Shown piece after piece: positions 1-12,546 of a stretch of DNA of 64,000 bases. The notes below the pieces were generated by a model. It did no database searches and was not told where the DNA came from. It saw only the letters and a program-made list of their open reading frames with translations. Location: NCBI GenBank assembly GCA_001442925.1, contig LDXX01000004.1:251001-315000 (forward strand), read 5' to 3'. The first letter of the stretch is position 1, and the number at the start of each line of letters is the position of its first letter. Source of the DNA: Candidatus Kryptonium thompsonii. Its GTDB lineage: Bacteria; Bacteroidota; Ignavibacteria; Kryptoniales; Kryptoniaceae. The position numbers were made by a program, and so were the translations under genes.

Positions 1-2698
1 CAAAATAGCCTCTTAAATTCAAACCACCTTTTAGAAATAGCCTTGCTTTTTCGGAAAATTTTTCATTGATAAGATAAATCATCCTGAAGGATTGATTCAA
101 GAATTGCTCATATGGATTTGCGGTGAAATAAAATTTTTCTTGTGTGGGCGTTTGACCGTAAGAATTTGCGAGATAAAATCTTGTTGTGAATTCAAATTTG
201 CTTAAAGTTGTGTTTTGTTTTATCTCAATTGAAAACTTGGTGAAATTTTTAGTGCTATTTGATGATGTCGTTTTTAGGGAAAAAGTTCCATATAAAGTTG
301 TGTTACCAATTATGTGAGTTATTCCCGCCGTGAAACCAAGCGTATTGAACTTCCCAGCATCCCATTTTAGATTTACAAAAGGAATTTTATTTTCAACAAG
401 CATAGTGTGTTCAAAAAATAGCGAAATATTGTAAAACGGTGGAACTGTCAAATAAAGTGGTCTTATGTCTTTGAAGATTTCAAAATAAAGTCTTCTCAAA
501 CCATGAAGTTTAAAAATTTCAACTTGAAAACCGCTTAATCTTTCAAGTATGGGGAAGGTATTGTTGCGATAGTTTATAAAATAATCAAAATTTTTTGTCC
601 TTGTGTTAAGCCACAATCCAAATTTTGTTTCGTTATAATCAAAAAGATAAGCTCCGTTTGTAAAGATTCCAGGTCTTGCTCCATCTCTTTGTGCAAACCA
701 AATTGATGGTCTTACGCTAAACCAATATCTTTCAAGTGGCGGGTTTAGTTGCGTTTGTTCAAGTAGTTTTATCTGAACCTTATTGAAAACGCCTGTTCTG
801 TTGTTTAACCTGTTAACATCCCTTAATTTTAATCTGCTATCAATTTCAACCATCTTCACCTTTTTGTCAAATGAAAGCTCAAACTCATAAACTGGGTTAA
901 CCCAAAACCAGTGGGGAAGTATTATCGCATTAGCTTCTTTCTTTGGTTTAAGTTGAAGGTCAAGCGGTATTATGACTTTTTGATATGTACCATCTTCAAA
1001 ATAAATGTAAAAGTCAATCGGCATAACAATTTGCCCATGATTGCGCAATTTAACTTTGATGCTGTATTTTCTTAAGCCATTTTCAGATATCCATTTACCA
1101 GAAAAGCTTTCAATTCCATAATCACATTTTCTTGTAGTTTTAAGCCATTGATCGAAAAACCAATCAAGTTCCATTCCACTTACTCTTTCGGCAACCCTTT
1201 CAAAATCTTTTGTTGTCGGGTGCTTGAAGCTCCATTCTTTGAAAAATTCCTTCATAATAAGATCAAACACGCTGTCTCCAACGACATATTCAAGCATTTC
1301 AAAAACGGATGCGCCCTTACCGTAAACAGCATTTGTGTAAGCGACCGACTCACGGAAGAAATCTGAGTGTAGGAGGGTTGGTTCCTCATAACCAAATTGT
1401 GAAAATCTTATGTAGTTTTTATAACCGCCGAAGATGTCAAATTCAGGCCTTAACAGTCTATCGAACAAAGAAGAATCATTTCTCCATTTCTCGCCCAATA
1501 ATTTTCTAAAGACCCTTGGAGTTACAAAACTTGCTCCGCCTTCATCTATCCAGGCCTCTTTTGATTCATTGTTTCCAATTAAACCATAGAACCAATTATG
1601 CCCGATCTCATGTGCGAGAATTCCGATCATGCTTGTTCTTCCGCGGTATCCAGTTATCATTATAAGCATTGGATATTCCATCCCACCATCCCCTGCTTGC
1701 GCAACTGTGAAACTTTTATAGGGATATTTATAAAACCATTCGCTGTAAAGTTTTATTATCTCTTTTGTAAATTTTCCCGTCTCCCGCCACAACATATAAA
1801 CATCGGGTTGGTAAAGGAGATGAATTATTACGGTATCATTGTCAAGCGTCATCCATGTTATCTCGTGGATGTAATCTCTATCTGCAACCCATGCGAAATC
1901 GTGGACATTTTCAGCCTTGAAGTGCCAGGTTTTTAGTTGTGTTTTTAACTCTTTTTTCCACTGTTGGGGAAATATCACCGTATCAACTGGACCGAGTTCA
2001 TATCCGCACATGACTTCATTTGGGTTTTGAATTACCCCCGTTGCTCCAACAAGATAATCCGATGGCAAGGTTATCTTTACATCAAAGTTTCCCCATACCC
2101 CATAAAATTCTCGTTCAATGTATTGGTCCGCATGCCACCCCTCAAAGTCATATTCACAAATTTTAGGATACCATTGAGCCATGCTGTAATCAATTCCTTC
2201 TCGATTATTCCTTCCATTTCTTCGCGTTTGTTTTGGAATTTGGGATTCGAATTCCATTTCAAGTTTTACAAAATGACCTGGGGCAAGTGGTTTTTTAAGC
2301 TTTGCTCTTAAAATGGTATCAAAAATTTCAAAATCAATGTCCTCATCATCGGCCTTTAAAAACTTAACATTTGTCCAACCATATTCATCAGGTTTCATCG
2401 CTCTAATCCTTTCACCAAGTCCATTTCTGATGACATCACCGCGAATTTGCATCGAACTGCCAGGTTTAAAAGCATTTAAATAGAGATGATAGTAAATCTC
2501 GCGAAGCGTATCTGGCGAGTTGTTATAGTAAATTGCCGTTTGTTTTCCAGTGAGTTTATGTGTTTTCGGATCAAGGGAAACATCCATCGTATAATCAACC
2601 CTTTGCTGAAAATAGTCGGACCTCTGTGCAAGGGAAAAGTTTAAAATGATAAAAACAACAAAAATAAGTTTTGTGTTAAAGCGAGCGGTTATTCCCAT
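1..2698 (-). CDS. M1-family metallopeptidase with a probable outer-membrane barrel extension (3' end outside window)
   Basis: A frame opens at 2698 and stays open to the window edge: 899 residues visible, C terminus missing. Residues 1-25 form a signal peptide ending FSLAQ. The gluzincin site is complete: GGMEY at 338-342, HEIGH at 363-367 and E386 exactly 18 residues after H367, the zinc-ligand spacing of M1 aminopeptidases. The peptidase region ends near residue 640. The remainder is rich in alternating aromatic/polar strands and reaches KGGLNLRGYF at 890-899, which resembles the conserved (V/L)RG(Y/F) signature of Omp85-type barrels. The start overlaps the upstream aldo-keto reductase gene by 10 bases. 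M1 identity is firm; the barrel is inferred from the pattern and the missing C terminus would decide it. Confidence 0.9.
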   Translation of the reverse strand, partial: MGITARFNTKLIFVVFIILNFSLAQRSDYFQQRVDYTMDVSLDPKTHKLTGKQTAIYYNNSPDTLREIYYHLYLNAFKPGSSMQIRGDVIRNGLGERIRAMKPDEYGWTNVKFLKADDEDIDFEIFDTILRAKLKKPLAPGHFVKLEMEFESQIPKQTRRNGRNNREGIDYSMAQWYPKICEYDFEGWHADQYIEREFYGVWGNFDVKITLPSDYLVGATGVIQNPNEVMCGYELGPVDTVIFPQQWKKELKTQLKTWHFKAENVHDFAWVADRDYIHEITWMTLDNDTVIIHLLYQPDVYMLWRETGKFTKEIIKLYSEWFYKYPYKSFTVAQAGDGGMEYPMLIMITGYRGRTSMIGILAHEIGHNWFYGLIGNNESKEAWIDEGGASFVTPRVFRKLLGEKWRNDSSLFDRLLRPEFDIFGGYKNYIRFSQFGYEEPTLLHSDFFRESVAYTNAVYGKGASVFEMLEYVVGDSVFDLIMKEFFKEWSFKHPTTKDFERVAERVSGMELDWFFDQWLKTTRKCDYGIESFSGKWISENGLRKYSIKVKLRNHGQIVMPIDFYIYFEDGTYQKVIIPLDLQLKPKKEANAIILPHWFWVNPVYEFELSFDKKVKMVEIDSRLKLRDVNRLNNRTGVFNKVQIKLLEQTQLNPPLERYWFSVRPSIWFAQRDGARPGIFTNGAYLFDYNETKFGLWLNTRTKNFDYFINYRNNTFPILERLSGFQVEIFKLHGLRRLYFEIFKDIRPLYLTVPPFYNISLFFEHTMLVENKIPFVNLKWDAGKFNTLGFTAGITHIIGNTTLYGTFSLKTTSSNSTKNFTKFSIEIKQNTTLSKFEFTTRFYLANSYGQTPTQEKFYFTANPYEQFLNQSFRMIYLINEKFSEKARLFLKGGLNLRGYF

Positions 2699-3666
2699 GT
2701 GAAGGCTTCGGTTATTTTTTGAATTTCTTCTTCGGTGAGTTTAAAGTTCACTGCCCCAGCATTTTCCTCAACTTGTTCTGGATTTCTTGCACCTACAATT
2801 GCGGTTGTTATGCCGGGTTGTGAAAATGTCCAGTTGATGACAATTTGAGCGAGGGTTGCGTTTCTTTCCTTCGCGATCGGCTTTATCTTTTCAAGCGCGT
2901 CGAGAACTTTCTTTCTGTTTTCGGGTTGGAACCAGAATTGTTTCTTTCTTAAATCTCCACTTTTGAATTCGGTTTCCATCGTGATTTTGCCCGTTAAGAG
3001 ACCTTGCTCAAGTGGGCTATATGCCAGGATTGAAATTTTATTTTCAATGCAAAATGAAGCGATCTCATTTACTATAGCGCGATCTACTAAACTATATTTC
3101 ACCTGATCGCTTTCAACGCGTGCATATTTAAAAGTTTCCTTTAAAAGATTTAAGTCAAAATTGCTCACACCAAATGCTCTTATTTTACCCTGTTCCTGAA
3201 GTCGAACCAAAGCTTCAAGCGATTCATCGATCGGCGTTGTTTTATCGGGCCAGTGAATTTGGTAAATGTCAATGTAATCTGTGTTAAGTCGTTTTAAACT
3301 TCTCTCACATTCTTCAATTATCGAGTTTTTTCGTGCGTTTTTGTAAACATAGTATCTCTTTCCATTAAAGTAAGTATCAAAGAAAAATTCACCTTCGTCT
3401 TTATCCCACCTCAAACCACATTTTGTTGCTATGATGACATCATTTCGCCTGCCCTTGATCGCTTTTCCGACAATTTCTTCGCCTAATCCAAATCCATAAA
3501 CTGGAGCGGTATCAATGCAGTTCATCCCAAGGTCGATTGCTTTGTTAATTGCCTTGATTGCGAGTTCTTCATCTGTTCCACCCCAATACCATCCACCAAT
3601 TGCCCATCCGCCGAAAGTTATAACAGGGATTTGAATTTCGGTTTGCCCAAATTGTCTGTATTCCAT
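2689..3666 (-). CDS. Aldo/keto reductase
   Basis: 325 residues, the full length of an AKR TIM barrel. The catalytic tetrad is visible as D52 and Y57 (IDTAPVYG), K82 (IIATKCG) and H138 (YQIHWP). The C-terminal IVGARNPEQVEENAGA segment is the usual NADPH-binding end. It should be an NAD(P)H-dependent carbonyl or sugar-aldehyde reductase of the YajO/IolS type; the substrate cannot be read. It follows the cupin gene by six bases, so the two are probably one transcript, and a link to sugar metabolism is only a guess. Confidence 0.9.
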   Translation of the reverse strand: MEYRQFGQTEIQIPVITFGGWAIGGWYWGGTDEELAIKAINKAIDLGMNCIDTAPVYGFGLGEEIVGKAIKGRRNDVIIATKCGLRWDKDEGEFFFDTYFNGKRYYVYKNARKNSIIEECERSLKRLNTDYIDIYQIHWPDKTTPIDESLEALVRLQEQGKIRAFGVSNFDLNLLKETFKYARVESDQVKYSLVDRAIVNEIASFCIENKISILAYSPLEQGLLTGKITMETEFKSGDLRKKQFWFQPENRKKVLDALEKIKPIAKERNATLAQIVINWTFSQPGITTAIVGARNPEQVEENAGAVNFKLTEEEIQKITEAFTWE

Positions 3667-3672
3667 TTTTTG

Positions 3673-3993
3673 TTATGCTTTTGTTTTTGATATGTTATAT
3701 CCGTAAAGCCAGTATGCTATTTCATTACTTTTATTTCTGACGGAGTGAATTGCACCTCGCGGGATAAACCATTCATCTCCAGGGTTTAGTTCTGCTACTT
3801 CTCCATCGCACTCAATTTCGAGTGTAACATTTAAAGGTGTTACAAGTTCATCGGTATCGTGCACAAAGTTTTCCCATCTTTGTCCAGGTGGGTCAACCCA
3901 GATATCAGTTGTAAAGCCACGCTCTTGCCATTCTTTTTCAATTTCTTCTTTGTCTTTTCCAAGCCATTTCCCTCTTTCAATGAATAAGGGCAT
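3673..3993 (-). CDS. Small cupin-domain protein
   Basis: 106 residues. The second half has the cupin fold signature: LNPGDEWFIPRGAIHSVRN, i.e. the PG-x-W/P-x-G-x-H motif, with H83 a likely metal ligand. The first half (LGKDKEEIEKEWQERGF) is a charged helix before the barrel. A GGAG ribosome site (AAGGAGT on the minus strand) lies just before the ATG. Single-domain cupins of this kind bind a metal and often act as sugar isomerases or sensors. No specific substrate is recognised. First gene of the unit cupin, aldo-keto reductase, M1 peptidase. Confidence 0.8.
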   Translation of the reverse strand: MPLFIERGKWLGKDKEEIEKEWQERGFTTDIWVDPPGQRWENFVHDTDELVTPLNVTLEIECDGEVAELNPGDEWFIPRGAIHSVRNKSNEIAYWLYGYNISKTKA

Positions 3994-4131: not shown

Positions 4132-5490
4132 ATGCTGGGTGATTATAAAAAGTATCTTGAGACGGCAAAGAAGGTATTTGAAGAAAATAAAACTCTTACT
4201 CTTGTAAGTCGTGGTAAAGATGGTAAGGTTTGGGCTGGAAAGGTTTATTTCGGTGAAGAAGATGGATATATTTATGTTGCACTTGAAAAAGGGAAAAATT
4301 ATTTCAATATCATTGAAAATCCCCATGTCTTTTTTGTGATTGAACATGGCGTTCCGGATAGATTTATCCAAGGCGAGGGAATCGCTGAAATGCTCGGGGA
4401 TATAGCTGATGTACCTGAACGAAGTATAATTTTTAGAAAAGCGATTGAGCTTGTCGTATACGCGAAGAAAATCCCTGGGGTTACGGTTTTTAGAATAAGG
4501 CCGACGAAACTTTACATCTCCGATTTCACCGAGGAATGGAAGCCAAGAGCTGAGATTGAAGTAACAGATGAGGTTTTAAGGCTTTTTCAAACAGAATTAA
4601 AAACGAGATATAACTTCTTAAAAGTTGCTTTTAGAGCGATAAGACCGTTTGCATTTCCAGCTACAATTGCGCCTGTTTTGCTTGGAACTTTTATAGCTCC
4701 ACATGTTTCAATTCCGATGTTTCTTCTTGTATTATTTGGTCTTTTAATTGCGCATTCCGCTGTAAATGTTTTAAGCGATTACTTTGATTATATTCGCGGT
4801 GCTGATACATGGCGAGTTCTTGGCTCGAGTCGTGTCCTTGTGGATGGTTTGATGAAACCGAAGCATCATTTATTTCTTGGTTTAAGTTTGCTTTTGATAT
4901 CTCTCGGGGTAGGCTTTTACTTTGTGTTCGCTGTTGATTATAAAGTTTTGTATTTTATAATCCCAGGTTTAATTCTTGGGCTTTTTTACACTGCTCCACC
5001 AGTTGGATTTAAATATAGAGCGTTGGGCGACCTCGCGGTTTTTCTTGCATTCGGACCTATTATGACGCTTGGGGTTTACTACATTCAAACAAGGGAAATC
5101 TCATTAATTCCTGTTATCCTTTCAATTCCGATCGGACTTTTGACGACGGCAATTTTACACGGGAATAATTTTAGGGATATCAAGGAAGATACTGAAGCTG
5201 GATATAAAACTTTCGCCGGTGTTATAGGTGTCAAGGCTTCAAGTTATTATTATGCTGTTCTTGTTTCGTTTGCGTATTTGTTGGTGGTTTATTTCATTTT
5301 TGAAAAGTTCTTGCCTGCCCTTGCAATACTTTCGTTTTTAACATTGCCCGTCGCAGTGAAAAATATTAAAGTTTCGTTCAATCAAGCGCTTGTAAATTTC
5401 ACATTCCTTGATTTGTTGACTGCTAAACTTCAACTTTACTTTTCAAGTTTGCTTATAATCGGAGTAATTTTTGAAAAATTTTTACTTTAA
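4132..5490 (+). CDS. Fusion: flavin-reductase-like split barrel + MenA-type UbiA prenyltransferase
   Basis: 452 residues in two parts. Residues 1-135 resemble the pyridoxamine-5'-phosphate-oxidase-like split barrel (VSRGKDGKVWAGKVYF; DRFIQGEGIAEM; IRPTKLYISDF). Residues 155-450 are a polytopic UbiA prenyltransferase with both Asp-rich motifs: N212-x3-D216-x2-D219 (NVLSDYFD) and N346-x2-D349-x3-D353 (NNFRDIKED). FGPIMTLGVYYIQT (308-321) is typical of MenA, which prenylates 1,4-dihydroxy-2-naphthoate for menaquinone. The N-terminal domain could bind flavin or F420/heme close to the membrane; its role is unknown. Starts at the first ATG and no stop interrupts the join, so the fusion is real in this sequence. 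Confidence 0.88.
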   Translation: MLGDYKKYLETAKKVFEENKTLTLVSRGKDGKVWAGKVYFGEEDGYIYVALEKGKNYFNIIENPHVFFVIEHGVPDRFIQGEGIAEMLGDIADVPERSIIFRKAIELVVYAKKIPGVTVFRIRPTKLYISDFTEEWKPRAEIEVTDEVLRLFQTELKTRYNFLKVAFRAIRPFAFPATIAPVLLGTFIAPHVSIPMFLLVLFGLLIAHSAVNVLSDYFDYIRGADTWRVLGSSRVLVDGLMKPKHHLFLGLSLLLISLGVGFYFVFAVDYKVLYFIIPGLILGLFYTAPPVGFKYRALGDLAVFLAFGPIMTLGVYYIQTREISLIPVILSIPIGLLTTAILHGNNFRDIKEDTEAGYKTFAGVIGVKASSYYYAVLVSFAYLLVVYFIFEKFLPALAILSFLTLPVAVKNIKVSFNQALVNFTFLDLLTAKLQLYFSSLLIIGVIFEKFLL

Positions 5491-5519: not shown

Positions 5520-6053
5520 ATGAAAATTACACTTGGTCTAAAACTTGTAGCTGATATCTTAACAACGCTTAGATTTTTAATCGGTCTTTACATCGTAAGA
5601 TTCTCAACCTTTGAACCGAATAATGGCGTCCCACTGGCTTCAGTTTTTTTGTGGATCGCATGGGTGACGGATTTATTGGATGGGCCAATTTCACGACTTG
5701 ATCCAAGAAAAGTTCAAACTTGGGTAGGGAGACATGATTTGACGGCAGATGTTACAGTTTCGCTTGGGTGTTGGCTTTTTCTGATTTTCTCAAATTTAAT
5801 TAACCCGTTTATTGGTTTTGGATATATCTTTCTTGGCGCATTTCTTTTGTGGTATTTTAAGTCCGAATATTTGGCGTGGGCTTTTCAAGCACCTCCGTAT
5901 GGGATGATGATTTTGGTTGCGTTAAAACATGCGCCCACATATGGAATGTTGCTTATTGTTTGGATTGTAATTGTAGTCATAATAACTTGGCCGAGATTCC
6001 CCAAATACACCCTGCCCGAGTTTTTGAGAGGGATGAGAGCACTGTTTAAATAA
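5520..6053 (+). CDS. CDP-alcohol phosphatidyltransferase-like membrane protein
   Basis: 177 residues, mostly hydrophobic. The stretch 51-77 carries D51-L-L-D54-G-P-I-S-R59 followed by G70, D73 and D77. This fits the family motif DxxDGxxAR...GxxxDxxxD with Ser for Ala and slightly different spacing; all four Asp that bind metal and the CDP-alcohol are present. Members make phospholipid head groups at the inner membrane by displacing CMP. The substrate cannot be assigned. It follows the MenA fusion by 29 bases and its end overlaps the convergent lutC end by eight bases. Confidence 0.68.
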   Translation: MKITLGLKLVADILTTLRFLIGLYIVRFSTFEPNNGVPLASVFLWIAWVTDLLDGPISRLDPRKVQTWVGRHDLTADVTVSLGCWLFLIFSNLINPFIGFGYIFLGAFLLWYFKSEYLAWAFQAPPYGMMILVALKHAPTYGMLLIVWIVIVVIITWPRFPKYTLPEFLRGMRALFK

Positions 6054-6576
6054 GTAGCAGGTAAACCTTTTGTGGACCGTGAACGCCAGGGACAATTACC
6101 TTTTCAATATCAGCTGTTCTGCTTGGTCCAGTTACCATAAAAATTGAATCGAATTTTCCTGCCGTTTTTGCGAAAAGTTCCTCAAATGTTGAGCAAATTT
6201 TTCCTCTATCTGCAATTATTATGTGAATTCGTGGAAGTAGTATACTCGATTTGAACCTGTTTTCTTTGTGAATGAAAACTATAGTCCCTGTTTCTGCAAC
6301 CAAAAAGTCACATCCTGTAATTGACGCATCTATCTGTGCAAGTTGTTCTATTGAGTGCGGTTGCGTGATTATCTGAGTGACGGACAAGTTTTTTAAAATG
6401 TCGTCAATTTCATTTTCAAATTTTTCAATGAAGACTCGAGCTATGTTTTCAGTGGTGATGATAGACGAGATGTTGTTAAAAATTCCCTGGGAAGTTGTTT
6501 CAATAAAAATTCCGCCAACCCTTTCAAATTCAAATTTGAACCTTTCTATAAGATCAGTTTCGCCAACAACTTTCAT
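6046..6576 (-). CDS. lutC: LutC-like LUD-domain protein of L-lactate utilisation
   Basis: 176 residues of the LUD/YkgG family. Features include ITGCDFLVAETGTIVF (a glycine-rich segment shared with LutB), LPRIHIIIADRGKI and the terminal TGPSRTADIEKVIVPGVHGP, which is highly typical of LutC. LutABC together oxidise L-lactate to pyruvate using iron-sulfur centres, replacing classical lactate dehydrogenases. It is the last gene of lutA-lutB-lutC, seven bases after lutB. Assignment rests on motifs and gene order. Confidence 0.9.
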   Translation of the reverse strand: MKVVGETDLIERFKFEFERVGGIFIETTSQGIFNNISSIITTENIARVFIEKFENEIDDILKNLSVTQIITQPHSIEQLAQIDASITGCDFLVAETGTIVFIHKENRFKSSILLPRIHIIIADRGKICSTFEELFAKTAGKFDSIFMVTGPSRTADIEKVIVPGVHGPQKVYLLLI

Positions 6577-6583
6577 TTGTTCT

Positions 6584-7972
6584 TTATGCTTCAGTTTCTT
6601 TTAATTTTTCCCATATCTCTTTAAAAGATTTTTCTGCAAGTTCAGGAAAAGCTCGTTCGCTTGACCATTTTTTAAATTTTGGTTTTATGCCCAACTTATA
6701 AAAGTATCTTAAAAATTTGGAACCAAACTTGTAAAGTTTATGATTTTTCATCCCGATCAGCCACAGCTTAAAAATTAACTTCTCAAACCGAGATGTAAAA
6801 CCAGAATTAACAGCTTGAGACCTCAGCCAAACCAAAAGATGGGGAATCTCAATTTTAACTGGGCAAATTTCATAACATTTTCCGCATAAGGAAGATGCAA
6901 ACGGTAAAGGCGTCGCTTTATCAAGTCCAAATTGTGCTGGGGTTAATACAGAACCAATCGGTCCTAGATAAATCGAGCCGTAGGCATGTCCCCCAACTCT
7001 TTGGTAAATAGGGCAAGCGAGCATGCAAGCACCACATTTGATGCAGTAAAGCGCTTGTTTTAACTTCTCCGACTTCAACAGGTTGGTTCTACCGTTGTCA
7101 AGTAAAATGACATAAATTTCCTCGGGTGAATCTGGTTTACTCTTTTTGGGTGCATTTATAATTGAAACGTAACTTGTAAACCTTTGAGCTGTTGCGCTTC
7201 TGCCCAAAATTTTGAAGAAAACTGTTAAGTCGGCAAGTCGTGGAATTACTTTTTCTATTCCTGTAATGACGATATGAATTTTGGGGAGAGTTGTGCTTAA
7301 GCCTGCATTTCCTTCGTTTTCAACTATTACGACGGAACCTGTCTCAGCTATAAGGAAGTTAGCTCCAGATATGCCGAGGTCAGCGTTTAAAAACTTATGT
7401 CGCAAAAATTCTCTGGCGATGCTTGTTAGTTTTTCGGGCTCATTTGTATATTCGACTCCAAGTTTTTCAGAAAAGAGCTTTCCGATTTCATCCCTTGATT
7501 TGTGCATTGCTGGAGCTGTGATGTGCGATGGCATCTCGCCAGCAAGTTGAACGATGAATTCCCCAAGGTCGGTTTCAACCGTCTCGATTCCATTTTCCTC
7601 AAGAAACTCCCTTAATCCAATTTCCTCCGTTACCATCGATTTGGACTTAACGCATAATTTTGCGTTTATTTTTCGGGCTATTTGAAGCACATAGTTTTTT
7701 GCTTCGGACGCATCTTTCGCTCGTAAAACTTTAATTCCATTTTCCGTCGCCCTTTTTTCAAATAGTTCAAGGTAATGGGAGAGGTTTTCGATGGTGTGTT
7801 TTTTTATATCATGAGCCCTTTGTCTTAAATCTTCCCAGTTGGGAAGTTCTGAAACTACTTCAACCCTTTTTGAAAGCGTGTGGGAGATTGCACGAGTTAA
7901 GTTCTTTCTTAAATTTGTATTCCTAAGGGCTTTTAGCGCATTCTCTTTAAATTTTAATGGTGTATAGTTCAT
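6584..7972 (-). CDS. lutB: LutB-like iron-sulfur protein of L-lactate utilisation
   Basis: 462 residues, the usual size for LutB/YkgF. The N-terminal LUD domain (about 60-300) contains ISGANFLIAETGSVVIVENEGN. A ferredoxin-type segment follows with C310-x2-C313-x2-C316-x3-C320 and a second set C363-x2-C366-x3-C370 before a proline, enough for two [4Fe-4S] clusters. The C-terminal 80 residues carry the conserved tail. It would transfer electrons within the LutABC lactate-oxidising complex in the cytoplasm. It lies 18 bases downstream of lutA. Confidence 0.93.
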   Translation of the reverse strand: MNYTPLKFKENALKALRNTNLRKNLTRAISHTLSKRVEVVSELPNWEDLRQRAHDIKKHTIENLSHYLELFEKRATENGIKVLRAKDASEAKNYVLQIARKINAKLCVKSKSMVTEEIGLREFLEENGIETVETDLGEFIVQLAGEMPSHITAPAMHKSRDEIGKLFSEKLGVEYTNEPEKLTSIAREFLRHKFLNADLGISGANFLIAETGSVVIVENEGNAGLSTTLPKIHIVITGIEKVIPRLADLTVFFKILGRSATAQRFTSYVSIINAPKKSKPDSPEEIYVILLDNGRTNLLKSEKLKQALYCIKCGACMLACPIYQRVGGHAYGSIYLGPIGSVLTPAQFGLDKATPLPFASSLCGKCYEICPVKIEIPHLLVWLRSQAVNSGFTSRFEKLIFKLWLIGMKNHKLYKFGSKFLRYFYKLGIKPKFKKWSSERAFPELAEKSFKEIWEKLKETEA

Positions 7973-7990
7973 CCGTGATTTTAATCTTTG

Positions 7991-8695
7991 TTAGAAGTTA
8001 GATAGAATTTGTGCTATGTGAATTGTTTTAATGTTAAGCCTATTCTTTCTCGCATAACCATCGATTTGCATAAGACAGCTTTGGTCTGTAGAGGTTACAA
8101 ACTCAGCACCTGAATTTAAAATGTAATTAACCTTATACCTTGCCATATCGGATGATATCTCTGGAAATTTAACCGAAAAAGTTCCACCGAAACCGCAACA
8201 ATCTTCCGAATTTTCCATCTCGATTAGTTTTAATTTTTTAACATTCTTTAGAAGGATCCGGGGCTCCGTTTTAACCCCGAGTTCTCTTAAAGCATGACAC
8301 GAGTCATGATATGTTACCGTATGGTTGAATTCAGCGCCAGTTGAGTCGATGTTCATAACTTTCACAAGAAATTCGGTCAATTCAAAAGATTTTTTCGCTA
8401 TGTTTAGCGATTCTTCATCACTAATGATTTCGGGATAAAAAATTTTAACCATACTGATGCACGAACCTGATGGGGAAATGATGTAATCAAAATCAGAAAA
8501 GGTTTTGATAAACTTTCTTGCCAAAATCTCCGCTTCTTTCCAATATCCAGTGTTAAATGCGGGTTGCCCACAGCAGGTTTGTTCAATCGGGTAATCAAAC
8601 TTTATCCCAAGCTTTTTTAAAATCTTTACAGTCGCAACTCCAACTTCGGGGTAAAATTGATCAATGTAACAGGGAATAAAAAGGGCAACTTTCAT
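7991..8695 (-). CDS. lutA: LutA-like CCG-domain oxidoreductase of L-lactate utilisation
   Basis: 234 residues with two cysteine-rich CCG repeats, C41-C42-G43 (TCCGQPAFNTG) and C166-C167-G168 (DCCGFGGTFSVK), plus the intervening SPSGSC and HDSCHA cysteines. This is the pattern of LutA/YkgE and of heterodisulfide reductase HdrB, where such repeats bind unusual iron-sulfur clusters. First gene of the lut operon, divergent from the ArsR genes across a 241-base gap that holds promoters for both directions. Confidence 0.93.
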   Translation of the reverse strand: MKVALFIPCYIDQFYPEVGVATVKILKKLGIKFDYPIEQTCCGQPAFNTGYWKEAEILARKFIKTFSDFDYIISPSGSCISMVKIFYPEIISDEESLNIAKKSFELTEFLVKVMNIDSTGAEFNHTVTYHDSCHALRELGVKTEPRILLKNVKKLKLIEMENSEDCCGFGGTFSVKFPEISSDMARYKVNYILNSGAEFVTSTDQSCLMQIDGYARKNRLNIKTIHIAQILSNF

Positions 8696-8722
8696 TTTAA
8701 AATCTGCTTTGTTCTTTGATTA

Positions 8723-8751
8723 AAGATAATAACACATACATTTGGAATCAA
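8723..8751 (-). promoter_or_regulatory. Candidate promoter of lutABC
   Basis: On the minus strand TTGATT (8751-8746) is followed after 17 bases by TATCTT (8728-8723), about 28 bases before the lutA start. The spacing is ideal but the -10 box is weak. I see nothing else clear in the rest of the gap (8752-8870). Confidence 0.4.
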
Positions 8752-8872
8752 ATTTAGCCTGCCCACTTTTGAATCTGACAATTTTTCAGTAGAGTGGAGC
8801 TTTTCATTGCAAAAGTTATTTAAAGACTTGAATTTTTGAAGATCTTTTTTGGTTTGTCTAACAAACTGTCAC

Positions 8873-8901
8873 TTGACAAATAGAGAAATTTTTATTATAT
8901 T
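8873..8901 (+). promoter_or_regulatory. Promoter of the ArsR-led redox/sulfur operon
   Basis: TTGACA at 8873-8878, a 17-base spacer, and TATATT at 8896-8901. This is a near-consensus sigma-70 type promoter, the strongest in the window. Transcription would start around 8908, inside the palindromic operator that begins at 8903, so a bound repressor would block initiation directly. Confidence 0.8.
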
Positions 8902-8902
8902 T

Positions 8903-8938
8903 ATATCGCAATATAAAAATATTTGAATATAGCGATAT
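8903..8938. promoter_or_regulatory. Palindromic operator, probably for the ArsR-family regulator
   Basis: Inverted arms ATATCGCAATAT (8903-8914) and ATATAGCGATAT (8927-8938) match at 11 of 12 positions around a 12-base AT-rich centre. The site starts one base after the -10 box and runs into the ATG of the first ArsR gene. ArsR/SmtB proteins commonly bind AT-rich dyads of this size at their own promoters, so autoregulation is the simplest reading. Confidence 0.72.
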
Positions 8939-9236
8939 GGATTTGAAGAAGTTGAAAGATTTGGACTTTGCCGAAGAGGCGGAGATATTGAAAATTCTTG
9001 GTCACCCAACTCGGTTGAAAATCATATGTGGTATAATTGAACAAGATTTATGTGTGGGTGATATAGGTAATTGCCTTGATGAACCGCAACCCAAAATTTC
9101 TCAACATCTCGCTTTGCTGAGGGCAAAGGGCATTGTGAAGGCGGAAAGGGATGGATTAAATATAAAGTATAGAGTTGTTCATCCGCTCGTTATAAAAATT
9201 GCCAAAATCCTTGAAAAGGAAAAATTGAAGAGCTGA
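8937..9236 (+). CDS. ArsR-family regulator with a non-canonical cysteine set
   Basis: 99 residues, a winged helix-turn-helix of the ArsR/SmtB type: ILGHPTRLKIICGI at the start of the domain, recognition helix PKISQHLALLRAKGIV, and the wing ERDGLNIKYRV. Where metal-sensing ArsR has ELCVCDL, this protein has DLCVGDIGNC: C39 is kept, the second cysteine is Gly, and C46 follows seven residues later; C31 is nearby. A dithiol or persulfide switch is possible and would suit the genes downstream. No Shine-Dalgarno is obvious. The ATG lies inside the operator. Confidence 0.88.
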   Translation: MDLKKLKDLDFAEEAEILKILGHPTRLKIICGIIEQDLCVGDIGNCLDEPQPKISQHLALLRAKGIVKAERDGLNIKYRVVHPLVIKIAKILEKEKLKS

Positions 9237-9244
9237 GGGTTGGT

Positions 9245-9526
9245 ATGAGGGAAAAAGTGTTTGATTATACGCAAATGGCGGAAACATTAAAAGTTCTTGG
9301 GCATCCAGTTCGCCTTAGAATAATTAGTGAATTAATTGGCTCTGATAAAACTGTTTCCGAGCTGTGGCATTCTGTTGGTCTTCCGCAGTCACTTGTTTCG
9401 CAACATCTTTCGATTTTGAGACATAGCGGGATTATAAAGAGTGTTCGAAAGGGCAGGTTGGTTTATTATTCAGTGGTAAGTCCAATTGCAGTTAGAATTT
9501 TAAATTTAATTCAAAAACAAAAATAA
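9245..9526 (+). CDS. Second ArsR-family regulator, cysteine-free
   Basis: 93 residues, again a full ArsR winged helix (KVLGHPVRLRIISEL; QSLVSQHLSILRHSGII; RKGRLVYYSV). It contains no cysteine at all, so it cannot use the metal or thiol sites of typical ArsR sensors. It starts eight bases after the first regulator. It could form heterodimers with the neighbour, respond to another ligand, or control a different promoter. Likely a tandem duplication that has diverged. Confidence 0.87.
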   Translation: MREKVFDYTQMAETLKVLGHPVRLRIISELIGSDKTVSELWHSVGLPQSLVSQHLSILRHSGIIKSVRKGRLVYYSVVSPIAVRILNLIQKQK

Positions 9527-9544
9527 AAAGGAGGGATTCAAGTT

Positions 9545-10219
9545 ATGTTTCTTGATGCTGACGACAGGGAAGAATTGAAGAAAAGATTTGAGGAAAATCT
9601 GGCTAATAAGGTCAAATTAATTCATTTTACTCGTGAGCTTGATTGTCAATATTGTAGAGAAACAAAGCAACTTCTGACAGAACTCGCTGAACTTTCTGAT
9701 AAAATTCAGTTGGAAATTTATAACTTCTACACAGACGAGGATAAGGTAAGGGAATTCAAAATAGATAAAGTTCCTGCAACTGTCATCGCAAGTGAAAACA
9801 AAGATTATGGGATAAGGTATTTTGGTATCCCTTCAGGTTATGAATTTGCATCGCTTTTGTCGGACATTGAAATGGTTTCCCGTGGAGCTTCAGGCTTAAG
9901 TCAAAGGAGCATTGAAAAAATAAAGGAAATTGATGTTCCGGTTCATATCCAAGTTTTTGTGACGCCAACATGTCCATATTGTCCAAGCGCAGTACATCTT
10001 GCACATCAACTTGCAATGGAAAATGATTTAATCACTGCAGATATGATAGAGGCAATTGAATTCCCAGATCTTGCCGAGAAATATATGGTAATGGGTGTTC
10101 CTAAAGTTGTGATGAACGATGTCTATTACTTTGAAGGTGCGTTGCCCGAAAGACATTATGTCGATAAAGTTGTTGAAGCAGCGAGAAAAACCAAAGAAGC
10201 ACTTAAACAACAAAATTAA
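9545..10219 (+). CDS. Protein disulfide oxidoreductase (two glutaredoxin-like domains)
   Basis: 224 residues made of two thioredoxin-fold halves with active sites C34-Q-Y-C37 and C143-P-Y-C146 (TPTCPYCPSAV). Each half has its cis-proline (DKVPATV and MGVPKVV). This is the PDO architecture of hyperthermophilic archaea and thermophilic bacteria, which makes and isomerises disulfides in the cytoplasm and can take electrons from thioredoxin reductase. A strong AAGGAGG at 9528-9534 precedes the ATG. Followed within eight bases by the CoA-disulfide reductase gene, which may keep it or low-molecular thiols reduced. Confidence 0.92.
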   Translation: MFLDADDREELKKRFEENLANKVKLIHFTRELDCQYCRETKQLLTELAELSDKIQLEIYNFYTDEDKVREFKIDKVPATVIASENKDYGIRYFGIPSGYEFASLLSDIEMVSRGASGLSQRSIEKIKEIDVPVHIQVFVTPTCPYCPSAVHLAHQLAMENDLITADMIEAIEFPDLAEKYMVMGVPKVVMNDVYYFEGALPERHYVDKVVEAARKTKEALKQQN

Positions 10220-10227
10220 GTTAAACT

Positions 10228-11592
10228 ATGGCTGAACGACTCGTTGTAATTGGTGGCGTTGCTGCTGGGATGAGCGCAGCAAGCAGAGCTCGAAGGTTAA
10301 GACCTGATATGGAGATCACTGTTTTTGAAAAAAGTGGGTTTGTTTCGTATGGTTCGTGTGGTTTGCCATATTTTATCTCTGGTATAATAAAAGCGCCAGA
10401 AAATTTGGTTGTTTATGATGCAAAATTTTTTAAAGAGAAAAGAAACATTGATGTTTTTGTCCATCATGAGGTTTTGAAGATATTTCCTGCGAAAAGAACA
10501 ATTCTTGTTAAAAATCTTGAAAATGGTAAAGAATTTGAAGTCGGATATGATAAACTTGTGATTGCAACTGGTGCCAGGGCTGTAAAGCCAAATATAAAAG
10601 GGATTGAGCTTAAGGGTATCTTTACAGTTAGATTCCTTGAGGATGGAATCAAGATAAAGGAGTTCATCAGTGAAAACTCTCCGCGAAAGGCTTTGATAGT
10701 TGGAGCTGGATATATAGGTATGGAAATGGCTGAAGCGCTTGTTTCACTTGGAATGGATGTGACAATTGTTGAGCAAATGCCAAATATACTTGGGACAATG
10801 GATGAAGAGATAAATGAAATTGTCGAGCAGGAACTTCAAAGAAACGGTGTAAAGCTTTTAAAGTCTGTCTCCGTTAATGAATTTATTGGAGAGAATGGAT
10901 ATGTTAAAAAATCAGTTTTAAGTAATGGTCAGGTGATTGACGCTGAGCTTGTTGTGGTTGGAGCTGGAATAAAACCAAACTCTGAAATTGCGAAGGAAGC
11001 TGGGATTGAAATTGGGAAGACAGGGGCGATAGCGGTAAATCAAAGGATGGAGACAAATATACCTGGAATTTACTCCGCTGGCGATTGTGCAGAAGTTTAT
11101 CATCTTGTTTTAAATCGCCCAGTTTACATTCCCCTTGGAACCACAGCGAACAAACAGGGGAAAATCGCTGGTGAAAATGCTGCTGGCGGGAATGCAGTTT
11201 TTAAAGGTATTGTTGGGACGGCGGTGTTTAAGGTTTTTGATTTGGAGGTGGCGAGAACCGGAATCTCTGAAAAGCAAGCAAAATCTGAAGGGTTTGATTA
11301 TGTTGCAACTTTGATCGAGCATGGTTCAAGAGCACATTATTATCCTGGTGGAAGCAAGATAAGGGTTAAACTTATTGCAGATAGAAAGACTGGGCGTTTG
11401 CTTGGGGCTGAAATGGTTGGAAAAGATGGCGTTGCTAAAAGAATTGATGTTTTTGCGACAGCAATTCATGCGAAATTGAGTGTTGATGAAATTTCTGACC
11501 TTGATTTAAGCTACGCACCACCGTTTGCACCTGTATGGGATCCAATTTTGATTGCTGCAAATGACCTTGAAAAGAAAATAAAGAGAAATTAG
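10228..11592 (+). CDS. CoA-disulfide reductase / NAD(P)H-dependent persulfide reductase family flavoprotein
   Basis: 454 residues of the class III pyridine nucleotide-disulfide reductase family. FAD motif VVIGGVAAGMSAASRARR near the N terminus, the single redox cysteine C44 in SYGSCGLPYF, the NAD(P)H motif VGAGYIGMEMAEALVSLG around 159-176, and the second FAD motif GIYSAGDCAE. A single Cys44 is the mark of CoA-disulfide reductase, NADH oxidase and NAD(P)H sulfur/persulfide reductase. No C-terminal rhodanese or SirA domain is attached. The sulfur-handling neighbours favour CoA disulfide or persulfide reduction over oxygen reduction. Confidence 0.88.
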   Translation: MAERLVVIGGVAAGMSAASRARRLRPDMEITVFEKSGFVSYGSCGLPYFISGIIKAPENLVVYDAKFFKEKRNIDVFVHHEVLKIFPAKRTILVKNLENGKEFEVGYDKLVIATGARAVKPNIKGIELKGIFTVRFLEDGIKIKEFISENSPRKALIVGAGYIGMEMAEALVSLGMDVTIVEQMPNILGTMDEEINEIVEQELQRNGVKLLKSVSVNEFIGENGYVKKSVLSNGQVIDAELVVVGAGIKPNSEIAKEAGIEIGKTGAIAVNQRMETNIPGIYSAGDCAEVYHLVLNRPVYIPLGTTANKQGKIAGENAAGGNAVFKGIVGTAVFKVFDLEVARTGISEKQAKSEGFDYVATLIEHGSRAHYYPGGSKIRVKLIADRKTGRLLGAEMVGKDGVAKRIDVFATAIHAKLSVDEISDLDLSYAPPFAPVWDPILIAANDLEKKIKRN

Positions 11593-11597
11593 CTTTT

Positions 11598-11846
11598 ATG
11601 GAGCAGAAACAACCAAAAGTTATAATTTTTACAACTCCAACCTGCCCATGGTGTAGAGCAGCAAAACAATACTTCATGCAAAAGAAGGTGAAATTTACTG
11701 AAGTTGATGTAACAAAGGATCAGCGTGCGGTTAAAGATTTGATTCGTCTCACAGGTCAAACTGGCGTACCTGTAATTTTGATAAATAATCGTCCTGTTGT
11801 CGGATTTGACAGGACAAAAATTGATCAATTACTTGGGTTAAAATAA
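11598..11846 (+). CDS. Glutaredoxin-like protein
   Basis: 82 residues, a minimal glutaredoxin fold: TTPTCPWCRAAKQYF with active site C16-P-W-C19, cis-proline segment TGVPVILINNRPVVGFD, and the closing helix. The size and FD motif are those of NrdH/GrxC-type proteins reduced by thioredoxin reductase or glutathione-like thiols. Six bases downstream of the CoA-disulfide reductase gene, so probably co-translated and perhaps reduced by it. Confidence 0.9.
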   Translation: MEQKQPKVIIFTTPTCPWCRAAKQYFMQKKVKFTEVDVTKDQRAVKDLIRLTGQTGVPVILINNRPVVGFDRTKIDQLLGLK

Positions 11847-11883
11847 AACTTAAAATAAAAACAAAAATAAGATTGGAGAAAAA

Positions 11884-12159
11884 ATGAAGATTAAACCACT
11901 TGATGACAGAATTCTTATCGAACCACTTGAAGAGGTTGAATCAAAGACAAGTTCTGGGATTATAATTCCAGACACGGCAAAAGAAAAACCAAGGGTGGGG
12001 ATCGTCATCGCTGTTGGCACCGATGAGGATTTACAATCAAAGATTAAAGTCGGTGATAAGGTTCTGTTTGCAAAATATGGCGGTGAGGAGATTGAAATGA
12101 ATGGGAAAGAATACAGGATTGTTTCCAGAAGCGACATACTCGCAGTAATTGAGGATTAG
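11884..12159 (+). CDS. groS: GroES co-chaperonin, without a groEL neighbour
   Basis: 91 residues with complete GroES features: PLDDRILIEP at the start, the mobile loop KTSSGIIIPDTAKEKP that docks on GroEL, GDKVLFAKYGGEEI, and the closing SDILAVIED. No groEL is adjacent; the next gene encodes a NifX-like protein. groES is normally the first gene of groESL, so this is either a second specialised copy placed under redox/sulfur control or a relocated sole copy. A GGAG ribosome site lies nine bases before the ATG. Confidence 0.93.
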   Translation: MKIKPLDDRILIEPLEEVESKTSSGIIIPDTAKEKPRVGIVIAVGTDEDLQSKIKVGDKVLFAKYGGEEIEMNGKEYRIVSRSDILAVIED

Positions 12160-12180
12160 AAAATTAATTCTTGATTAGTT

Positions 12181-12546
12181 ATGAAAATTTCAATCCCAAC
12201 AGATGACGGCGAGCATGTTTCCGAAGCCTTTGGGCATGCTCGCTACTTTTGGATTCTGGACACAGATACTCATGAAACAGATCTAAGAAATAATATTGAG
12301 ATGCATAATACTCATGAACACATGCATTCTATACATGATCATGGAAGACATAAAAGGGCGGAGATAATAGCTGAGATTTTGAAGGATGTTGAGATTATAA
12401 TTACATCTCATATTGGGAAACCAATGATTGATAAGATGCTTTCGGAGGGAAAAGTAATTTATATTGCTCCGAAGAAAATTAAAATATCGGATGCCTTAAG
12501 TTTATATTTTAACGGACAACTTAGGAAAATAAAACAAGAAGCTTGA
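12181..12546 (+). CDS. NifX/NifB-C-terminal-like (dinitrogenase FeMo cofactor family) protein with a His-rich loop
   Basis: 121 residues. It opens with MKISIPTDDGEHVSEAFGHARYF, the standard beginning of the Nitro_FeMo-Co family, and ends with EIIITSHIGKPMIDKMLSEG and a LYFNGQLRK tail. Between them residues 36-58 are packed with histidine (TDTHETD, HNTHEHMHSIHDHGRH), a likely metal-binding loop. No nif genes are in the window. Stand-alone family members are thought to bind iron-sulfur or other metal clusters. It ends one base before the SQR-like gene, so the pair is tightly linked. Confidence 0.85.
   Translation: MKISIPTDDGEHVSEAFGHARYFWILDTDTHETDLRNNIEMHNTHEHMHSIHDHGRHKRAEIIAEILKDVEIIITSHIGKPMIDKMLSEGKVIYIAPKKIKISDALSLYFNGQLRKIKQEA

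Follow-up and report, generated by a model that had tools for sequence, protein, structure and literature searches.

A predicted M1 aminopeptidase fused to an Omp85-type barrel in Candidatus Kryptonium thompsonii: a widespread and apparently undescribed design

Results

The window analysed here is a stretch of 64,000 nucleotides from Candidatus Kryptonium thompsonii (contig LDXX01000004.1, positions 251,001 to 315,000; G000:C4:251001-315000). At its left edge, on the minus strand, lies the greater part of a gene whose product joins an M1 aminopeptidase unit to an Omp85-type beta-barrel, and which is called M1-Omp85 below. The gene, its parts and its nearest neighbours are given here in window positions unless another locus is named.

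1..2698, minus: M1-Omp85 fusion gene; the part inside the window encodes residues 1-899 of 1027
G000:C4:250615-253698 (L002:7616-10699), minus: whole M1-Omp85 gene
2627..2698, minus: signal peptide, residues 1-24 (ending ..NFSLA, cut before QRS), without lipobox; read from the sequence, with N-termini compared
797..2626, minus: M1 aminopeptidase unit, residues 25-634; from Pfam, AlphaFold, Foldseek and the span of M1-only relatives
1670..1687, minus: GGMEYP (338-343), a variant form of the GxMEN exopeptidase motif of family M1
1541..1612, minus: zinc site HEIGH (363-367) with third ligand E386
749..790, minus: linker helix, residues 637-650, predicted by AlphaFold with falling confidence
2..748, minus: Omp85-type beta-barrel, residues 651-899 in the window and on to 1027 outside
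5..13, minus: RGY of the L6 motif (V/I/L)RG(Y/F), residues 896-898
2689..3666, minus: aldo/keto reductase gene, directly upstream and sharing 10 bases with the start of M1-Omp85
3673..3993, minus: cupin gene, same co-directional run
L002:6836-7615 (left of the window), minus: DUF3108 gene, directly downstream, its start adjoining the M1-Omp85 stop

It was found that the gene forms a single open frame in the window (2-2698, minus), which begins with ATG and runs for 899 codons to the window edge, where it is still open. The initial annotation, made from the letters of the window, had described one frame with M1 motifs followed by beta-type sequence up to KGGLNLRGYF at the edge, and this is confirmed. 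It had also proposed that the DNA to the left of position 1 be inspected, as a stop shortly beyond the edge would speak against a barrel. On the same contig 128 more codons precede the stop, giving an uninterrupted protein of 1027 aa. The early stop did not occur. The 128 residues are about what an Omp85 barrel needs after L6; within the same order, the LRGY-type motif of BamA and of further Omp85 proteins is 114-126 residues away from the C-terminus. The gene is present in all seven genomes of the genus, with six complete frames of 995-1043 codons (the seventh copy is truncated by a contig end and is left out of this range), and the fusion was also found in related genera. Presence in every genome of the genus at similar frame lengths argues that the fusion does not result from chance. 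Comparison with two orthologues indicated purifying selection on the barrel codons (dN/dS 0.08 and 0.22), with a weaker constraint than on the M1 part (0.04 and 0.055). On the sequence evidence the M1-Omp85 architecture is considered nearly certain.

The co-directional run consists of cupin, aldo/keto reductase, M1-Omp85, DUF3108, an NAD-dependent epimerase and a methyltransferase, the last being named from its sequence alone. Gene order is kept in Chrysopegis, and the three Kryptonia loci that were looked at all retain DUF3108. Among the loci searched, cupin, reductase, DUF3108 and epimerase stand together beside M1-Omp85 only in Kryptonia; the gene context therefore says little on function, as it is not conserved beyond this group. 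Further along the window, at 4132-5490 on the plus strand, a PNPOx-like flavin domain (sub-threshold in Pfam, E 2.5e-4) is joined in one frame with a UbiA prenyltransferase (E 3.1e-34). This is an unusual fusion, and a CDP-alcohol phosphatidyltransferase-like gene comes next.

The M1 unit is made up of an N-terminal beta domain I, a catalytic domain II and a beta-sandwich domain III (about residues 527-634). Pfam Peptidase_M1 (PF01433) matches residues 313-518 (E 1.2e-17), scoring 64.5 bits where the cut-off is 27.7. The zinc ligands are H363, H367 and E386, in the exact spacing HExxH-18x-E, and the GGMEY variant retains the amine-binding Glu E341. All 84 relatives checked, of which 46 are long and 38 short, retain the zinc site and a GxMEN-type motif. 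For the orthologue L003, which is 90% identical, an AlphaFold model run with 19 rows contains domains I-III, with most of residues 29-634 at a pLDDT of about 80, and the best Foldseek matches of the M1 model are IRAP (E 1.9e-22), ERAP1 and other M1 aminopeptidases. Many M1 enzymes carry an alpha-helical C-terminal domain IV, which is not a defining feature of the family. In the AlphaFold model this domain is absent, and domain III runs straight into the barrel. The description of a canonical M1 catalytic unit (HEIGH, E386) is thus upheld by the intact motifs and by a PF01433 match above the curated cut-off, and the M1 part is predicted to be a canonical aminopeptidase with its catalytic residues intact.

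The barrel encoded in the window itself matched no Pfam model, PF01103 included, and with its own C-terminus lacking such a match the case for Omp85 rests on its relatives. When a profile built from 20 of these barrels was run against the whole set of PDB sequences, it gave 43 distinct matches, all of them BamA (best E 1.2e-5); a narrower profile of six sequences from the RGY clade gave no relevant PDB match. Elsewhere in the genome lies a second copy of the gene (C2:89384-92350), 35% identical over residues 14-1009, which matches PF01103 (Omp85) with E 0.0021. Orthologues of this second copy in two genomes of the same genus match both PF01433 and PF01103 above the curated cut-offs in one frame. 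The NCBIfam model Omp85_fam gave E values of 4.6e-7 and 2.8e-6 for these two orthologues and 6e-6 for the genome's own second copy, all below the cut-off of that model.

Profile comparison placed these barrels next to the WD40-Omp85 subfamily, named after Heinz and Lithgow 2014 and here meaning proteins with an HExxH Peptidase_MA_2-like domain, a PD40 propeller and an Omp85 barrel. One lies in the same genome (G000:C3; L142:1386-4244, minus), and the other peptidase-propeller-Omp85 genes are L124-L131, L135-L139, L141 and L143. In hhalign, with comparison barrels drawn from the same genomes, M1 barrels reached a probability of 96% with WD40-Omp85 barrels over 292 positions, nearly the whole barrel, 90% with short Omp85 proteins (436-496 aa) and 44% with BamA. 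The controls reached 0.6% (TonB receptor barrels) and 0.1% (FadL barrels), and on this scale WD40-Omp85 against BamA gives 96.5%. In the WD40-Omp85 proteins of this order, the HExxH Peptidase_MA_2-like domain lies N-terminal to a TolB-like propeller and scores above cut-off in some of them; in the part of the 2014 survey of the family considered here (PMC4104836) the propeller is the sole N-terminal domain mentioned for the subfamily.

Pfam detected no POTRA domain in M1-Omp85, and the domain that precedes the barrel, domain III, is a beta-sandwich in the AlphaFold model. In that part of the survey (PMC4104836) Omp85 proteins are defined by their barrel, and subfamilies without POTRA are listed; M1-Omp85 is an enzyme-fused, POTRA-less Omp85 protein. 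The domain length of 374-484 aa fits an Omp85 barrel. AlphaFold gave an all-beta model of barrel plus domain III at low confidence (4 rows, mean pLDDT 34.8), and in the full orthologue modelled with 19 rows the barrel had a pLDDT of about 25-58. Amphipathic-strand counting gave 16 peaks in M1 barrels but 21 in BamA, so the figure of 16 from this uncalibrated method proves nothing. The earlier estimate of more than 250 beta residues after the catalytic unit needs to be divided: about 110 of them (about 527-634) belong to M1 domain III, and the barrel begins at about residue 650. A soluble beta-sandwich alone was rejected, since the sandwich is domain III and about 390 residues come after it. 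The proposal of an Omp85-like barrel has held, given PDB matches to BamA only, curated Omp85 matches on close paralogues, motifs in register and the distance to the stop.

These motifs are the two halves of the lid lock. The L6 arginine of (V/I)RG(Y/F) forms a salt bridge with the strand-13 aspartate of (F/G)xDxG, R450-D492 in FhaC (PMC4490367). LRGY occupies residues 895-898, its RGY being separated from the C-terminus by 132 residues. It aligns with the LRGY in BamA of the same genome, which has the same Leu in place of Val/Ile. FGDVG (FxDxG, strand 13) lies downstream of RGY, outside the window, and is in register with the same BamA. Using a home-made Omp85 profile, M1 barrels place LRGY on LRGY and FxDAG on the conserved strand-13 motif. 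The stretch KGGLNLRGYF had been read as an Omp85 hallmark, and the alignment with BamA and the presence of the FxDxG partner support this reading. Across 47 M1-fused barrels both Arg and Asp occur in 11, neither in 36 and only one in none, statistics that are limited by kinship to one or two independent contrasts on the tree. The 11 carriers are the window gene, its orthologues, the second copies and Ignavibacteria-type members; RGY and FxDxG are absent from most other clades of the family. The pattern is still what a real but dispensable lid lock would give.

A relative was found in 302 of 395 sampled genomes of the phylum. Relatives of the long form (about 990-1200 aa, with a single one at 1602) occur in at least 17 families and short forms (about 610-720 aa) in others; the M1-only relatives (Flavobacterium and others) stop at the end of domain III. 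When a tree was built from the M1 part, all 38 short forms fell into a single clade (SH-aLRT 95) that is nested within the 46 long ones, and a single change therefore explains the data. Under midpoint rooting, the root not being fixed, this change would be a loss of the barrel. The scan of viral contigs yielded no further members.

Several observations from these searches may be recorded here. An Ignavibacteriae MAG (L005) has two divergent M1-Omp85 genes in tandem, at 5944-9171 and 9364-12471. The relative of 1602 residues (L085:2756-7561, minus) has its M1 match at 871-1066 and about 550 extra N-terminal residues without a Pfam match. Some ORFs in genomes of the same order, about 1050 aa long and matching Omp85 strongly, were considered as M1 fusions and, where checked, proved to be peptidase-propeller-Omp85 genes; among those fetched, only L134 and L140 are M1. 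An apparent lipobox in 12 M1-only proteins was also rejected, because orthologues without the Cys keep the same cleavage site between A and Q and the Cys comes too early.

Discussion

Taken together, the explanation we favour, though with some reserve, is that of an M1 aminopeptidase anchored in the outer membrane and probably facing the periplasm. The signal peptide would export the chain to the periplasm, where the last ~380 residues would fold into the outer membrane as an Omp85-type barrel without POTRA, leaving the N-terminal ~610 residues to hang from it as an active zinc aminopeptidase. The enzyme would most likely lie on the periplasmic side, at the position that POTRA takes in BamA, and could there trim N-terminal residues off peptides along the outer membrane's inner face, possibly imported peptides or degradation products. 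The barrel would serve mainly as anchor and platform, with a closed lid lock kept in Kryptonia and Ignavibacteria. Every relative checked has the M1 motifs, whereas most clades lack the lid lock and one lacks the barrel, which suggests that the enzyme is the constant element and the barrel mainly its anchor. The sequences show the fusion, the Omp85 homology of the barrel, the intact catalytic residues and the lack of POTRA; the periplasmic side, the anchoring role and the range of trimmed peptides are what we infer, and a periplasm-facing anchored enzyme seems fairly probable to us. The signal peptides of the M1-only relatives are plain, and these proteins carry neither a lipobox nor an extra sorting domain at the C-terminus, which is consistent with a periplasmic enzyme. 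A 2024 study found the patatin domain of PlpD to be exclusively periplasmic and the protein to be a homodimer (PMC11116518), and together with these signal peptides it makes periplasmic anchoring likelier than delivery outside.

The last point bears on the suggestion in the initial annotation that the peptidase is delivered by its own barrel after the PlpD design. That suggestion follows an outdated model of PlpD and is probably wrong as to purpose. A form of it, first put forward for PlpD and other type Vd autotransporters, in which the barrel carries the M1 unit across the outer membrane and shows or releases it so that environmental peptides serve as food, could draw on Omp85 relatives such as FhaC, which translocate polypeptides, on a linker of about 25 residues (634-658) that is long enough to be threaded through the barrel and could span the membrane, and on the plausibility of a digestive exopeptidase outside the cell for heterotrophs. 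We nevertheless hold surface display to be unlikely: the PlpD passenger, once thought to be exported (2010-2014), is periplasmic (PMC11116518), the N-terminal domains of Omp85 proteins studied to date face the periplasm, the M1-only relatives lack the lipobox and the extra sorting domain named above, and the window's own clade retains the lid lock that closes the barrel.

Less probable still is a barrel that works as insertase or translocase, with the peptidase trimming proteins or peptides that pass through or into the outer membrane. The clade of the window keeps the full (V/I/L)RG(Y/F) and FxDxG lock of characterised Omp85 transporters and insertases, and its closest barrels are those of peptidase-propeller-Omp85 proteins, in which a zinc peptidase is paired with Omp85 a second time. 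Against this stand the absence of POTRA domains, the 36 of 47 barrels that lack the lock with the enzyme still intact, and the one whole clade without a barrel. It is just as doubtful that POTRA-less M1-Omp85 and MA_2-propeller-Omp85 proteins make up a general class of outer-membrane gates coupled to peptidases across the Bacteroidota-Ignavibacteria group, with the barrel as a working conduit beyond its part as anchor and crossing peptides being trimmed. That the C-terminal region is a barrel or other beta-rich domain unrelated to Omp85, its RGY being coincidental, is the least credible reading and is already disfavoured. The lack of a Pfam match on the barrel itself and the low confidence of its AlphaFold models would agree with it, but it leaves unexplained PDB matches that are exclusively BamA, curated Omp85 matches on paralogues, a near full-length profile alignment where the controls fail, and two motifs in register.

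The anchored, probably periplasmic aminopeptidase that we prefer would add an aminopeptidase to the short list of enzymes on Omp85 barrels, and would do so in at least 17 sampled families of a phylum and not in a single genus. PlpD had raised the view that the Omp85 scaffold has been reused for new enzyme functions, beyond insertase or secretion pore, and M1-Omp85 supports it. Some natural variants have the lid lock, others lack it and others lack the barrel altogether, so that the roles of lock and barrel are directly testable. No description of M1-Omp85 was found in the openly available full texts searched on Omp85 with M1, on PlpD with peptidase and on Omp85 in Bacteroidota, and the design, although widespread, is apparently undescribed. 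It may already exist as an unremarked architecture in databases.

One Omp85 type has the Pfam model PF00149, which is that of calcineurin-like metallophosphoesterases. The part of the 2014 survey considered here (PMC4104836) distinguishes ten Omp85 subfamilies, among them patatin, WD40, 'Metallo' (PF00149) and one with no N-terminal domain, and no M1 type; it calls the 'Metallo' subfamily a metalloprotease, citing PF00149, and a true peptidase-Omp85 seems not to be recognised in it. The 'Metallo' proteins of that account resemble M1-Omp85 in having a hydrolase, as a non-POTRA N-terminal domain, with an Omp85 barrel, and differ in that the hydrolase is not M1. PlpD and the patatin-Omp85 proteins (type Vd) likewise combine, within a single chain, an enzyme with an Omp85 barrel that follows it. 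However, the PlpD enzyme is a lipase and not a peptidase, and POTRA stands where M1-Omp85 has the beta-sandwich of domain III; neither of the type Vd hallmarks, patatin and POTRA, was detected in M1-Omp85 by Pfam. The PlpD enzyme is periplasmic and dimeric (PMC11116518). The closest barrel by profile is that of WD40-Omp85, which shares an N-terminal zinc peptidase (of the MA type), the absence of detected POTRA and the same RGY/FxDxG motifs; it has a propeller, whereas in M1-Omp85 a full M1 aminopeptidase is joined directly to the barrel. The M1-only aminopeptidases of Flavobacteriia/Bacteroidia (about 620-680 aa) are of the same M1 subfamily, ~36-45% identical over residues ~10-634, and differ in having no barrel and in forming one nested clade of the tree. 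BamA has a homologous barrel, and the BamA of this genome has its RGY and FxDxG in register with those of M1-Omp85, but it carries POTRA domains, which M1-Omp85 lacks, and no enzyme domain.
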